Assembly (NCBI GenBank): GCA_001898035.1
Contig: MKRX01000003.1
Coordinates: 20,265-84,264, forward strand
Direction: 5' to 3'
From: Armatimonadetes bacterium 55-13
Lineage (GTDB): Bacteria; Armatimonadota; Fimbriimonadia; Fimbriimonadales; Fimbriimonadaceae
DNA: 64,000 nt
Shown: in pieces, positions 30,202 through 38,472 of the stretch
Layout of the letters: each line of letters starts with the position of its first letter
How positions within the stretch are numbered: position 1 is the stretch's first letter
Position numbers and translations under genes: made by a program
The notes under the pieces: generated by a model
Seen by the model: the letters and a program-made list of their open reading frames with translations, nothing else
What the model was told of the DNA's origin: nothing
Databases searched by the model: none

Positions 30202-30351
30202 TTGCCACAAAATCCGGCTCGATCTAATCGGCCATAAGGCCCATTGGTTAAGAAATGAAGAAGGCGAGTCGGCATGTTTTGAATCTAAATTAGTGTTATT
30301 TCATCTAGTTTTTAGAGGTTAGTACCGGAATCGACCGAAAACAATGCTAGG
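30202..30351. other. Intergenic stretch before the ilv leader
   Basis: No gene is seen. The AT-rich segment 30270-30320 should hold the ilv promoter. TTGAAT at 30279-30284 is a possible -35, but no convincing -10 stands out. Confidence 0.4.
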
Positions 30352-30471
30352 ATGATAGACGTGGAGATGAACACGCCACCGGATAACCTTCGAACGGTCC
30401 AACGACCGCGGTTGTCGGTTGTTGGTCTCGTTCTTCTCGTCGTGCTAAGCATTATTCTCGGCCTACCGTAG
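30352..30471 (+). CDS. Candidate ilv leader peptide, 39 residues
   Basis: A short ORF from ATG 30352 to TAG 30471. After a hydrophilic first half (MIDVEMNTPPDNLRTVQRPR) the second half is LSVVGLVLLVVLSIILGLP: 14 of its last 19 residues are Leu, Val or Ile, exactly the amino acids whose synthesis the downstream genes serve. It is followed by a strong intrinsic terminator and then ilvB. This is the layout of transcription attenuators such as the enterobacterial ilv leaders. The start is uncertain (GTG 30361 or ATG 30367 are alternatives). A single-helix membrane peptide is the competing reading. Confidence 0.65.
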   Translation: MIDVEMNTPPDNLRTVQRPRLSVVGLVLLVVLSIILGLP

Positions 30472-30533
30472 CCGGGACAGGGTGCTAAGCACAGCAAGCC
30501 TTCCCGGACTCGAAAATCCGGGAAGGCTTTTTT
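30442..30533 (+). promoter_or_regulatory. Putative transcription attenuator of the ilv operon
   Basis: The word GTGCTAAGCA occurs twice, in the leader codons (30442-30451) and after the stop (30482-30491); being nearly self-complementary, the copies can pair with each other. CCGGGA at 30472-30477 can pair with TCCCGG at 30502-30507 inside the terminator 5' arm, a possible antiterminator. A ribosome stalled on Val/Leu/Ile codons would cover the first element. The pairing scheme is inference. Confidence 0.55.
30496..30533 (+). terminator. Intrinsic terminator between leader peptide and ilvB
   Basis: A perfect 13-bp stem, AAGCCTTCCCGGA (30496-30508) with TCCGGGAAGGCTT (30517-30529), loop CTCGAAAA, continues into a run of six T's. 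It stands 25 bases after the leader stop and about 87 before ilvB. Confidence 0.93.
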
Positions 30534-30619
30534 GTTTGTAAAAACGAAAGGGCGCCGACAATGCAGTCGGAACCTGGCAGCTCCAAAGACGGGGCATAGC
30601 TACAGGAGGACTTAACGAC

Positions 30620-32314
30620 GTGCGTTCAGGCGCAAAGATAGTAATGGAAGCTCTCGTCCGTGAGGGCATCGACACGATCTTCGGATATCCCGGAGGCGTT
30701 GTCCTGCCGCTTTACGACGAAATGCTGAATTGGCCCCAGGTGAAACACGTCCTGGTGCGACATGAACAATGTGCGGCCCACATGGCCGACGGCTATGCCC
30801 GAGCAACCAACAACGTGGGAGTTTGCCTTGCCACGAGTGGTCCCGGCGCGACGAATTTGGTGACTGGAATTGCCAACGCAATGATGGATTCGATTCCGAT
30901 GGTCGCGATTACCGGCAACGTGAACACGTGGGCCATCGGAAAGGATGCGTTCCAAGAGACCGACATCCAAGGCATCACGATTCCAATCACGAAGCACAAC
31001 TACCTCGTGACCAACGTTGACGACTTGCCCGGCGTATTGGCAGAAGCCTTCTATCTGGCGAACACCGGTCGTAAAGGTCCTGTGCTTGTCGACATTCCCA
31101 AGGATGTCTTTACAGCTATGACAGACAAGCCGTTCCCGGAAACGGTGACTCGGCGAGGCTACGAAATCCCCGGCGCTCCTGCCCAGGAACAGGTTGATGA
31201 AGTTGCCCGATTGATTGCGGAGGCTAATAAGCCAGTGATCATCGCGGGACAGGGCGTTCTCGCTTCTGGCTCAATGGACTTGCTTCGTGAGCTTGCTGAG
31301 AAGGCGCATATCCCCGTCATCAACTCGCTGTTGGGTCTGGGCAGTTTCCCGCGCAACCATGAATTGTCCCTTGGAATGATGGGAATGCATGGCGAAGCCA
31401 CCGGCACGCTGGCGGTTCAAGACGCTGACCTCGTGATGGGAGTTGGCATTCGCTTTGATGACCGACTGACCGGCGATACCAATACCTTTGCAAAGAACGC
31501 CAAGATCGTTCACTTCGACTTGGACCCAAGCGAAGTCGGAAAGACGGTCACTCCGGTTGCATGGGTGATTGGCGATCTTAAATTGGGACTGGAAATGCTG
31601 GTCCCCATGGTTGAGCCCAAGCGACATGACGAGTGGGTAGCTCAGGTCAAGGGTTGGCAAGAGGCCTATCCGCTGGTGGTTCCGGAAGGCAAGTTCCTCT
31701 CCCGAACTGTCTTGCGCGCTCTGAATGAGCACACTAAGGGGCAAGCCATTGTTTCAACCGACGTCGGACAGCACCAAATGTGGACGGCTCAGTTCTACAA
31801 GGTCATGAAGCCGTATCACTTCATCTCTAGTGGTGGTCTCGGAACTATGGGCTTTGGATTCCCTTCCGCAATGGGCGCCAAGTTCGCTAAACCGGACTCT
31901 GAAGTTTGGTGCGTGGTGGGCGACGGCGGCTTCCAGATGACTCTGCAAGAACTCCAGACCGCAGTTGAATATGGCGTGAAGGTCAATATCTGTTTGCTGA
32001 ACAATGGCTACCTGGGCATGGTTCGGCAGTGGCAGGAGTTGTTCTTCGACAACCGCTACAGCAGCGTCCAAATGGGTTCTCCAGACTATGGCAAGCTTGC
32101 GGACGCCTATGGAGTGAAGTTCTTCCGTTGCACGCGAGTTGAGGATCTCGATGAGACTCTCCGGCAGGCGCGCGAATTCGATGGACCCACCCTTTGCGAA
32201 TTCGTCGTTGAAATGGAAGAGAACGTCTATCCGATGGTTCCGGCTGGAAAGGACAACAGCACGGTCATCATGGATCCCGATCTGCCTAAGCAACCGGCAG
32301 GAGCAACCAAGTGA
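30620..32314 (+). CDS. ilvB: Acetolactate synthase, catalytic subunit
   Basis: A 564-residue thiamine diphosphate enzyme that makes acetolactate or acetohydroxybutyrate, the first common step of Val/Leu/Ile synthesis. It starts at GTG 30620, nine bases after AGGAGGA. The catalytic Glu49 is in VRHEQCAAHMADGYARA, and the cofactor motif GDGGFQMTLQEL with LLNNGYLGMVRQWQ lies near residues 433-475. The central FAD-type domain has LPRNHELSLGMMGMHG-like sequence. It is first structural gene after the attenuator and overlaps ilvN. Confidence 0.98.
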   Translation: MRSGAKIVMEALVREGIDTIFGYPGGVVLPLYDEMLNWPQVKHVLVRHEQCAAHMADGYARATNNVGVCLATSGPGATNLVTGIANAMMDSIPMVAITGNVNTWAIGKDAFQETDIQGITIPITKHNYLVTNVDDLPGVLAEAFYLANTGRKGPVLVDIPKDVFTAMTDKPFPETVTRRGYEIPGAPAQEQVDEVARLIAEANKPVIIAGQGVLASGSMDLLRELAEKAHIPVINSLLGLGSFPRNHELSLGMMGMHGEATGTLAVQDADLVMGVGIRFDDRLTGDTNTFAKNAKIVHFDLDPSEVGKTVTPVAWVIGDLKLGLEMLVPMVEPKRHDEWVAQVKGWQEAYPLVVPEGKFLSRTVLRALNEHTKGQAIVSTDVGQHQMWTAQFYKVMKPYHFISSGGLGTMGFGFPSAMGAKFAKPDSEVWCVVGDGGFQMTLQELQTAVEYGVKVNICLLNNGYLGMVRQWQELFFDNRYSSVQMGSPDYGKLADAYGVKFFRCTRVEDLDETLRQAREFDGPTLCEFVVEMEENVYPMVPAGKDNSTVIMDPDLPKQPAGATK

Positions 32315-32796
32315 GCCAGCAACACACCATCACCGCGCTCGTTCAGAACGAGGCGGGAACCATCAACCGATTGGTCTCGATGTTTCGTCGACGCGGTGTT
32401 TCTTTGGCTTCGTTCAATGCGGGGGATTGCGAGCAGGAAGGATATTCTCGACTCACACTCCTCGTCGACGGCGATGAATCCATGCTTCATCAAACGCTAA
32501 AGCAACTTGTGAAGCTCATCGATGTTGTAGAAGTTGAAGACTTGGCAGCGGATCACGGAATTCAGCGTGAGCTAGCGTTGATCCGAGTCGATCCAAATTC
32601 AAGCGAAGTCGAACACGTCAAGAATCTGGCCTCCGAGTTTGAAGCCAAGATTCCGAAGGAAACGGCGACGAGCGTCTTTGTTGAATTCACGGGGAATCCG
32701 AAAGACATCGAGAAGCTAATTGGGGCGCTAAAGCCGTACAATGTTGCGGAAGTTGTCCGAACGGGCCTAGTCGCGATGCGAACGGATTCGGTCTAG
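32311..32796 (+). CDS. ilvN: Acetolactate synthase, regulatory subunit
   Basis: A 161-residue small subunit (ilvN/ilvH type). The N-terminal ACT domain HTITALVQNEAGTINRLVSMFRRRG binds valine for feedback control. The second domain is about residues 85-160. The GTG start overlaps the ilvB stop (GTGA), so the two subunits are translationally coupled. The length is normal. Confidence 0.96.
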   Translation: MSQQHTITALVQNEAGTINRLVSMFRRRGVSLASFNAGDCEQEGYSRLTLLVDGDESMLHQTLKQLVKLIDVVEVEDLAADHGIQRELALIRVDPNSSEVEHVKNLASEFEAKIPKETATSVFVEFTGNPKDIEKLIGALKPYNVAEVVRTGLVAMRTDSV

Positions 32797-32803
32797 CCTT
32801 ACG

Positions 32804-33997
32804 ATGGGTTTGAATGTGGCTGGCGCACTCGTTACGGACTCAACCGTATACGGAAAAGCGGTTTCAAAGGAAAAACGAGTGCAGCCAGACCTCCTTGACG
32901 TTAGCGTTTCGCTCATCTGTGCGTCCCAGAGTATGGGAGGCACCGAACAGATCGTTCGGCTGCTCGCAGCAGGGCTTCATGAGAGGCGCGCAAACGTCAA
33001 TCTTGTGACGATATCGTCATCCAACGCTCAGTGGCTATCCACAAGCGGAGTGGATGCAAAGCCTGAGCCTCTTCTTGAAAGCGGCGCGGGTATTCGAAAG
33101 CAGATCCTAGGATTAAGAAACACATTCAGGCCCCTTCGCAAGTCAGTCGTAAATATTCACTATCCGACATGCGACATCTACCGGAGTCATATCTTGGCAC
33201 TAAGGCTCGCGGGATGTCGGCGCATCATTGTGTCGCTACATCACCCGAATCTGGAATTCGGTCATCGGACCGCTATGAACAGAAAGATTCTTGGTCTTTG
33301 CGAGCGCATCGTGGTTACCACTCGGGCAAATCGAGATTTTGTTGCTTCGAACGGAATTGCTTCCGACGACAAGATAACTATCGTGGCGCCCGGAGTACCT
33401 GATCAAACTCAACTCGATCAAAACGTTGCCCGAGAGAAACTAGACCTTCCCAAAGGAAAGTTTATCGTAGGAGTTTTGTGCCGTCTGGAACCGGAGAAGA
33501 GAGTGAGAGAGGTAGTCGAAGCCTGCCGCATTGCAAATGCCGGTGGAGACGAGGTCTTCCTTGTTATCGCAGGCCAAGGAACTCGATACGACTTTATTCG
33601 TGAACTGGCGACCAAGGCACTGGGCGATAAATTTAAGATGGTGGGCTGGGTTGAGGACGCCAACGTCTTCTACTCGGCCATTGACGCATACGTGATGCTT
33701 TCGGAGTTGGAGGGATTTGGTCTTGCCTATGCAGAAGCCGCGTTGCACGGGGTTCCGAGTATCGGTTGCCGCACAGGGGGTACACCCGATGCGATTGAGC
33801 ACGGAGTTACCGGTTTTCTTGTAGACGTTGAAAATCCCAATTCTGCCGCCGGAGACTATCTTCGCTCTTGGATGAATTCAAGAGAGACGTTGAGGAAGAT
33901 GGGCGACGCAGCCCGAACACGAGCTTTGGAACACTTTACAGCAAGTTCGCTGCTCAGCGGATACATGCAGCTTTACGACAAAAAACATAACAAATAA
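32804..33997 (+). CDS. Glycosyltransferase family 4-like protein within the ilv operon
   Basis: A 397-residue GT-B fold protein. The N-terminal domain has SQSMGGTEQIVRLLAAGLHERRA, and the C-terminal nucleotide-sugar domain has VGVLCRLEPEKRVREVVEA, FKMVGWVEDANVFYSAIDAYVMLSELEGFGLAYAEA with the conserved E-x7-E motif, and GVPSIGCRTGGTPDAIEHG. It probably transfers a sugar to an envelope glycan or lipid. It follows ilvN by 7 bases and precedes ilvC by 45, on the same strand, although it has no obvious link to amino-acid synthesis. The first 30 residues are not conserved-looking, so the true start may be downstream. Confidence 0.88.
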   Translation: MGLNVAGALVTDSTVYGKAVSKEKRVQPDLLDVSVSLICASQSMGGTEQIVRLLAAGLHERRANVNLVTISSSNAQWLSTSGVDAKPEPLLESGAGIRKQILGLRNTFRPLRKSVVNIHYPTCDIYRSHILALRLAGCRRIIVSLHHPNLEFGHRTAMNRKILGLCERIVVTTRANRDFVASNGIASDDKITIVAPGVPDQTQLDQNVAREKLDLPKGKFIVGVLCRLEPEKRVREVVEACRIANAGGDEVFLVIAGQGTRYDFIRELATKALGDKFKMVGWVEDANVFYSAIDAYVMLSELEGFGLAYAEAALHGVPSIGCRTGGTPDAIEHGVTGFLVDVENPNSAAGDYLRSWMNSRETLRKMGDAARTRALEHFTASSLLSGYMQLYDKKHNK

Positions 33998-34042: not shown

Positions 34043-35038
34043 ATGGCAAAAATTTATTACGAGAAGGACGTCAATCCCGAACTCATCAAATCTCTCAAAG
34101 TAGTCATCATCGGCTATGGCAGTCAGGGACACGCCCACGCGCTGAATCTGCGCGATAGCGGAATCGACGTTCGAGTGGCACTTCACCCGGACAGTAAGTC
34201 GATTGAAAAAGCCAAGGAAGCAGGTCTGGAGGTCATGACTGTGCCCGAAGCAACCAAGTGGGCGGATGTCATGATGTTCTGCACCCCGGACGTTCCGATG
34301 AAAGGCATCTATGAAGAGGGAGTTGCGCCAAACCTGAGAGCCGGGCAAACCCTTCTCTTTGCTCATGGTTTCAACATTCACTACAAGCTGATTACCCCTC
34401 CCACCGATATCAATGTGGCAATGGTCGCACCCAAGGGTCCGGGACATCGGCTTCGCGCGGAGTTTGTGGGCGGAAACGGGATGCCCTGCTTGGTAGCCGT
34501 TCATCAAGACGCTACGGGCGATGCGAAAGATATTGCTCTGAGCTACGGTTGGGGAATAGGTGGCGCCAAGGCTGGAATCCTTGAGACGACGTTCAAGGAA
34601 GAGACCGAAACCGACCTGTTTGGCGAACAAGCCGTTCTTTGTGGTGGAATCTCCGCATTGATCAAAGCCGGTTTTGAGACACTTGTTGAGGCTGGGTATC
34701 AACCAGAAGCAGCCTACTTTGAGTGCCTGCACGAGACCAAGCTGATCGTGGATCTTCTTTACGAAGGCGGTTTGAACTACATGCGCTACTCCATCAGCGA
34801 TACTGCCGAGTGGGGCGACTACACGGCAGGGCCACGAGTTATCAACGATCAGAGCAAGAAGGCGATGCGAGAGCTTCTCACCGAGATTCAAGACGGCACC
34901 TTTGCCAAGACTTGGATTGAGGAGAACGAGAATGGTCGTCCCCGCATGAACAAGTATCGCGAAGAGGAATCCCAGCACCCGGTTGAGAAGGTCGGTAAGG
35001 AACTCCGAGCGATGATGCCATTCATTAAGGCTAAGTAG
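34043..35038 (+). CDS. ilvC: Ketol-acid reductoisomerase
   Basis: A 331-residue class I enzyme that isomerises and reduces acetolactate with NADPH and Mg. The Rossmann loop is [21 protein letters not shown], and [13 protein letters not shown] fits the cofactor-phosphate-binding loop. The catalytic region includes [26 protein letters not shown] and [17 protein letters not shown]. It is in operon order with ilvBN, separated only by the glycosyltransferase. Confidence 0.98.
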
Positions 35039-36801: not shown

Positions 36802-38472
36802 ATGTTCGATCCAAAACACAAATCAAGAGTCATCTCGGAAGGGGCCGATAAAACCGCCAACCGAGCCATGCTGAGAGCCATGGGCCTGGGGGACCAGGAC
36901 ATGCTTCAGCCTTGGGTGGGCGTTGCCACGGTATGGAGTGAGGCAACCCCCTGCAACGTCAATCTCGATGTCCAGGGCCTGGCAGTGGCAGAAGAGATTA
37001 AGAAGCACGGCGCGACCCCTCGACGCTTCAACACCATTTCCGTTAGCGACGGAATTGGTATGGGCCACGAAGGCATGAAGGCATCTCTGATCTCGCGCGA
37101 GGTTATTGCAGATTCGGTCGAGCTTATGATGCGCGCCCACTGCTACGACGGGCTGGTGGGAATTGCCGGTTGCGACAAGAGCCTTCCTGGAATGTTGATT
37201 GCCATGGCACGCTTGAATGTCCCGAGTGTCTTCCTTTATGGAGGCACGATCATGCCGGGCAAGTACAAAGGCAAGGACGTGACGATTCAGGACGCTTTCG
37301 AGGCGGCCGGCGCATACGCGGCGGGAACGATCACCGCCGAGGAATTGCACGACATCGAGTGCGCGGTTTGTCCGGGCGCAGGCGCCTGCGGTGGGCAGTA
37401 CACGGCCAACACGATGGCCTGTGTGGCCGAGGCGCTTGGAATGGCAGTCTCGGGCTCCAGCGGTCCTCCTGCCGAATCTGAGGACCGAAATGGTTACCTC
37501 AAGCAAGTTGGGGAGACAATCGTCAATGCGCTCAAGAGTGGCATCTTGCCGCGAGACATTCTGACCAAAGAAGCGTTTGAGAACGCGATCGCGGTTGGCG
37601 CAGCTACGGGAGGATCGACCAACGTCGCGCTCCATATTCCAGCGATTGCGAATGAACTTGGAATCGAAATCACCCTAGATGACGTCCAACGAATTTCTGA
37701 GCGGACGCCTACGCTGGCTGACCTTCGACCCGGCGGACGATTCGTTATGCTCGACCTCTACAATGTCGGTGGCGTTCCTACGGTTCTGAAAGCGATGCTG
37801 GATGCCGGCTGCCTGCATGGCGACTGCATGACGGTCAATGGCAAGACTCTCGCCGAAAACTTAAAAGATGTGGTGATTCCGGCTGGTCAAGAGGTGGTTC
37901 GGACCAAAGACAACCCGGTCTCGCCAACCGGGGGCCTGGCAATCGTTCGAGGGAATCTGGCCACCGAGGGTGGCGTGATCAAAACGGCCGGCGTTAAGAA
38001 GCTGGCTCACACCGGTCCGGTACGCGTTTTTGATTGCGAAGACGACGCCATGGCTGCGGTTCAGCGACAAGAGATCAAGCGAGGCGACGTGGTGGCGATT
38101 CGTTACGAAGGCCCTAAGGGTGGCCCTGGCATGCGTGAGATGCTCGGCGTGACGGCGGCGATTGTAGGCCAGGGATTGGGCTACGATGTTGCGCTCCTGA
38201 CCGATGGCCGCTTCTCTGGTGCAACTCGAGGTTTGATGGTCGGGCACGTTTGTCCAGAGGCGATGGATGGTGGCGCGATCGCTCTGCTTCAGGATGGCGA
38301 CATTGTAACTGTGGACGCTGAGAAGGGCGTTCTGAGCGTCGATCTGAGCGAGGCTGAGTTGGAAGCTCGACGAGCGGCTTGGAAGCCGATTGAACCGCGG
38401 TACACGACCGGCGCGCTAGCGAAGTACGCAAGGTCGGTAGGTCCGGCCAGCAAGGGCGCGGTTACTCGATAA
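36802..38472 (+). CDS. ilvD: Dihydroxy-acid dehydratase
   Basis: A 556-residue Fe-S enzyme making the 2-keto acids for Val and Ile. Cluster ligands are visible in [24 protein letters not shown] and [38 protein letters not shown] near the end carries the catalytic Ser/Gly-rich loop. Its start ATG 36802 follows the EEP gene closely, which places it in the extended ilv operon. Length and motifs are standard. Confidence 0.98.

Follow-up and report, generated by a model that had tools for sequence, protein, structure and literature searches.

The attenuators of the E. coli ilvGMEDA and ilvBN operons work in the same way as the leader that we propose here, and a 1:2 pause hairpin is standard in them, whereas such a hairpin was not detected in most species of the family that we studied. 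The ilvB1NC leader of M. tuberculosis precedes the same gene and combines a uORF rich in branched-chain amino acid (BCAA) codons, a terminator and an antiterminator that is blocked by a ribosome at the stop codon (PMC13236596). It has four regulatory codons (LVVI) in a leader of 166 nt, compared with a run of about 12-18 codons in a leader of about 260 nt at our locus; attenuation of ilvB1NC was demonstrated by experiment, in a different phylum (PMC13236596), whereas here it is predicted from sequence. The ilvBNC leader and ilvB-II motif of Corynebacterium likewise have a BCAA-rich uORF before ilvB, a terminator/antiterminator pair and an anti-antiterminator hairpin, and translation has been discussed in terms of leaderless mRNA; the uORF usually has 15-17 codons and the antiterminator arm lies in the P1 region (PMC10272879, PMC11857589). 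In contrast, the arm at our locus comes right after the stop codon, and an anti-antiterminator is predicted only in the genus of the organism itself.

Similar attenuation has been predicted in other Actinobacteria (PMC1262725), and the ilvB-OMG and Leptospira ilvB motifs are ilvB leaders with predicted BCAA-rich uORFs (PMC10272879); our comparison with these two motifs was by Rfam searches, which gave no hit for the leader described here. T-box leaders (RF00230) also respond to tRNA charging and precede ilvB in other Armatimonadota lineages, but a T-box senses tRNA directly, without translation, and T-boxes are absent from the order studied here. A literature search combining Armatimonadetes, attenuation and leader peptide returned no report, with subscription papers mostly outside its reach, and the sequence-only reading from which this work started likewise knew of no case described in Armatimonadota.

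The ilvB leader of Armatimonadetes bacterium 55-13

We analyzed a stretch of 64,000 nt (the window) of contig MKRX01000003.1 from Armatimonadetes bacterium 55-13, which belongs to the family Fimbriimonadaceae and the order Fimbriimonadales. The ilv genes were identified by NCBIfam models, and the locus has the following features:

30345-30353, + strand: putative extended -10 element of the leader transcript, TGc-TAGGAT
30361-30471, + strand: leader peptide ORF, (f)MEMNTPPDNLRTVQRPRLSVVGLVLLVVLSIILGLP, 36 codons from GTG 30361, second half rich in I/L/V
ATG 30352 and ATG 30367, + strand: alternative starts of the leader ORF
30442-30493, + strand: long hairpin of two GTGCTAAGCA words plus UCUCGG/CCGGGA, in the MFE structure of the window leader and also seen in L002
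30472-30477, + strand: antiterminator 5' arm CCGGGA, immediately 3' of the stop codon and complementary to the terminator 5' arm
30496-30529, + strand: intrinsic terminator, perfect 13-bp stem, 8-nt loop, T-rich tail
30552-30601, + strand: tandem-hairpin element, hairpin A 30555-30570 (CCGAC/GUCGG) and hairpin B 30580-30595
30620-32314, + strand: ilvB, acetolactate synthase large subunit, the controlled gene, GTG start (TIGR00118, 732.8 bits)
32311-32796, + strand: ilvN, acetolactate synthase small subunit (NF008864/TIGR00119, above cut-off)
34043-35038, + strand: ilvC, ketol-acid reductoisomerase (TIGR00465, 440.7 bits)
36802-38472, + strand: ilvD, dihydroxy-acid dehydratase (TIGR00110, 710.3 bits)

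The sequence-only reading had recognized the layout of ribosome-mediated attenuation in a 39-codon ORF with 14/19 Leu, Val or Ile in its second half, a perfect 13-bp terminator with a T-run before ilvB, and CCGGGA/TCCCGG as an alternative pairing. All of these elements are present. The ORF at 30352-30471 encodes 39 aa, ends with TAG at 30469-30471, and has 14 I/L/V among its final 19 residues, LSVVGLVLLVVLSIILGLP. The terminator stem begins 24 nt past this stop and reaches -23.9 kcal/mol when folded alone; TCCCGG (30502-30507) in its 5' arm is common to terminator and antiterminator. Folding of the RNA from 30340 to 30560 gave a z of -5.3, with 0/200 shuffles as low. The start was revised: ATG 30352 overlaps the -10-like TAGGAT (30348-30353), and GTG 30361 is the likelier one. 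Our promoter/start script paired this hexamer with ATG 30367, but GTG 30361, at a spacing of 6-7 nt, is the start that L002 has as well; the RTGGAG start of the window leader also occurs in L002, L003 and L031.

A strict sigma-70 scan found no -35/-10 pair. Of the 29 orthologs, 28 have TAnnnT 6-13 nt 5' of a codon that could plausibly start the leader, against about 7% of background positions, a contrast somewhat inflated by picking starts that maximise hexamer presence. Transcription driven by such a -10 would begin on the start codon or a few bases 5' of it, and the leader mRNA is therefore probably leaderless or nearly so.

We scanned the 1250 short ORFs of the window, counting both strands, and the leader ORF stood out twice: it alone reaches at least 10 I/L/V per 12 residues, and no other combines an end rich in I/L/V with a strong terminator after it.

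Conservation and covariation in the family

A search of 85 genomes of the family gave 30 IlvB orthologs of about 65-100% identity, 29 of them with upstream DNA; the 76%-identical ilvB relative L051 is from an uncultured Armatimonadetes bacterium. The parts of the attenuator and their conservation, covariation and spacing can be read directly in these orthologs. In 29/29, a short ORF with 8-11 I/L/V in 12 residues is followed by a stop codon, 121-192 nt upstream of ilvB, and by a strong hairpin that starts 14-36 nt 3' of the ORF. A CCGGGAAG-like arm, complementary to the hairpin 5' arm, lies 0-4 nt after the stop in 28/29. The two arms change together, for example CCCCAGGAAG/CTTCCTGGGG in L036, GGGAAGACC/GGTCTTCCC in L007 and CCGGAGA/TCTCCGG in L049. 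Own arms outpaired swapped arms in 5000/5000 permutations (mean score 20.0 vs 16.9), and the control scores were 12.0 for shuffled arms and 10.8 for leader segments. The antiterminator pairing is weak or unusual in L032, L009 and L031, and the T tract is weak (2-3 T in 9) in about 10/29 terminators, some of which may depend on a factor or be less effective.

These data bear on what the sequence-only reading had proposed. Its attenuation layout gained support from the 29/29 orthologs, from the covariation of the arms it had pointed out (no permutation, 0/5000, did as well as the native pairs) and from the logic of ribosome position described below. Its proposed check for conservation of codon run and terminator throughout the phylum gave a divided answer: both are kept in 29/29 family orthologs, while such an ORF plus terminator preceded ilvB in 0/47 genomes of the phylum outside the family, and phylum-wide conservation was rejected on that count.

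One could argue that a hydrophobic ORF and a terminator simply happen to be neighbors, as ILV-rich short ORFs do occur occasionally and eight others in the window carry 8 or 9 I/L/V per 12. We regard this as refuted by conservation and covariation, and so improbable that it hardly counts: the arrangement was present in 29/29 family loci as opposed to 0/77 control upstream regions, with chance rates based on the window and the control loci.

The composition of the run bears on a second alternative, in which the ORF is a gene for a small single-span membrane protein that precedes ilvB by chance and is followed by an ordinary terminator. The C-terminal 19 residues are indeed hydrophobic enough for a membrane helix. 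Yet F, M, W, Y and C are entirely missing from the 377 run residues of the 29 species, unlike in a typical helix; codons -4 to -16 are 75% I/L/V, and the remainder is mostly Gly, Ser and Ala. The peptide itself is hardly conserved, with a median pairwise identity of 33% over the last 18 residues, so that composition is retained while sequence has diverged, which argues that codon identity is selected, not a peptide or a membrane helix. The run also keeps a fixed position relative to the stop and the antiterminator arm and precedes ilvB in every ortholog, and we consider the membrane protein very unlikely.

Ribosome position and hairpin formation

We favor, with a high degree of confidence, a ribosome-mediated transcription attenuator that controls ilvB-ilvN(-ilvC-ilvD). 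The proposed mechanism is classical ribosome-mediated attenuation, as for the ilv genes of E. coli, C. glutamicum and M. tuberculosis, and the leader lies directly 5' of its cognate biosynthetic genes, ilvB first.

From promoter to starvation response, we infer the following course. RNA polymerase would begin the transcript on the leader start codon or immediately 5' of it, with a ribosome translating the Leu/Val/Ile-rich leader behind it. When Leu-, Val- and Ile-tRNA are charged, the ribosome would reach the stop codon and its footprint would cover CCGGGA, blocking the antiterminator; the terminator at 30496-30529 would then form and transcription would end before ilvB. If any of the three tRNAs were uncharged, the ribosome would stall several codons before the stop, leaving CCGGGA to pair with TCCCGG in the terminator 5' arm, and polymerase would read through.

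In computed folding of the nascent RNA, the position of the ribosome decides which hairpin forms. The mask that stood for the ribosome ended 13 nt from the first base of the A-site codon, a size taken from general knowledge of ribosome footprints. The mean antiterminator probability was 0.00 with the A site at the stop codon, 0.14 one codon earlier, 0.63 two codons earlier and 0.90 for stalls at codons -3 to -7. The ILV profile of the orthologs matches these positions: 62-93% (mostly >72%) at codons -5 to -14 and high to -16, but 0-45% at -1 to -3, positions from which the footprint of a stalled ribosome would still reach over the arm. Computed equilibrium folding favors the terminator at every ribosome position, so that, as with the attenuators already known, the choice must be made kinetically.

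The two GTGCTAAGCA words (30442-30451 and 30482-30491), which the sequence-only reading had offered as part of the alternative pairings, are present but were rejected as the core switch, since only the window and L002 have the repeat among the orthologs. What stands is an extra hairpin at the level of the genus. With the ribosome 14 codons before the stop, the antiterminator probability was 0.01 in the window (L001) and 0.06 in its congener L002, suggesting that the hairpin may act in this genus as an anti-antiterminator, which would capture CCGGGA when the ribosome is far upstream or the leader is untranslated, and make termination the default. In the test for a 1:2 pause or protector hairpin, one was present in the window and L002, L037, L040 and L006 had a similar drop only far upstream, and in most other orthologs it was not seen.

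Tandem hairpins, downstream genes and distribution

The tandem-hairpin element between terminator and ilvB ends a few bases 5' of the ilvB Shine-Dalgarno sequence (30604-30609). In an alignment of 21 orthologs, 97.9% of cells are paired and 6/9 pairs have two-sided changes; 0/500 shuffles did as well, a control that leans in favor of the structure, which was drawn from the same alignment. A covariance model run on the 85 family genomes found the element at ilvB in 20, down to E ~0.001. Six weaker matches that we inspected (E 0.001-0.02) all lie inside coding sequence, and we rejected a multi-gene regulon; within the family the element looks specific to ilvB. It matched no Rfam family. Both hairpins carry similar RNNGNN hexaloops, which do not fit the ANGGA of CsrA sites or the ACGR of mini-ykkC, and these two identities were discarded.

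Interspersed among the ilv genes are three others, which resemble a glycosyltransferase gene, encode an ABC ATPase and resemble an endonuclease/phosphatase gene, respectively. The first (32804-33997) separates ilvN from ilvC and looks like an insertion, because the gap from ilvB to the ilvC match is about 1800 nt in the window and about 500-1000 nt in most relatives. As separate observations, this type of IlvB was found in only about 31/85 family genomes and an ilvC match in 74/85; family genomes lacking this IlvB may rely on another acetolactate synthase or be auxotrophic in part. The LeuA-like proteins, among them that at G000:C10:19838-20971 (L204; G000 is the genome of the window), align in most members of the family with no more than the first ~380/494 positions of the leuA model, and in these members the C-terminal regulatory domain seems to be missing. 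Upstream of leuA the attenuator layout was absent (0/30 loci), and no convincing Trp-rich leader was found before trpE in 30 loci.

T-boxes were found in 151/251 genomes of the phylum, none of them from the family, and in 0/113 genomes of the order. An Rfam test of 20 of the 47 ilvB loci outside the family placed a T-box next to ilvB in 8 (directly 5' of the gene in L131, L140, L143, L151, L152, L167, L168 and L169). This neighborhood lends some plausibility to an intrinsic terminator that acts constitutively, or to a leader that answers another signal (T-box, ppGpp riboswitch or protein) and not its own translation. The Rfam search of the window leader, however, gave no match, with RF00230 absent and the amino-acid leader families (e.g. 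Phe_leader RF01859) reaching at best 19 bits against a gathering threshold of 55; the order lacks T-boxes, and the codon run and arm geometry would be left unexplained. We give such a signal very little credence compared with attenuation by the translating ribosome.

Leader-like ORFs with terminators also precede ilvB in some other phyla, e.g. L054, L072, L083, L092 and L102; L054, L072, L092 and L102, from Chloroflexi and an unassigned bacterium, have BCAA-rich leader ORFs and strong terminators. Desulfobacterota/Deltaproteobacteria leaders (L083, L079, L091 and L111) end in ...CTGATAATGGCC-stop or similar, and close to the end of the ORF they carry CTGATAA, which could pair with the 5' arm of a terminator of the CCGTTATCAG type. 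They had no Rfam match and are possibly another attenuator layout.

In the IlvB tree the family forms its own clade (support 1.0) beside Chloroflexi and Acidobacteria sequences, and apart from seven other Armatimonadota sequences, a placement with supports of 0.71-0.91 and limited sampling. Because the family IlvB groups outside the other Armatimonadota, the sensor of tRNA charging may have changed together with the lineage of the enzyme. More tentatively, and on balance doubtfully, the ilvB leader might have two layers: a (near-)leaderless attenuator that replaced a T-box when a different IlvB was acquired, and tandem hairpins that sense a second signal or bind a protein to control translation.

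The tandem hairpins add a new candidate RNA motif, and the attenuator would extend ribosome-mediated attenuation of ilv genes to a phylum in which our search found no earlier report of it. Within this one phylum, a T-box precedes ilvB in several lineages and a leader-peptide attenuator in the family Fimbriimonadaceae; this contrast opens both the change of sensor and its possible link to a change of IlvB lineage to testing.
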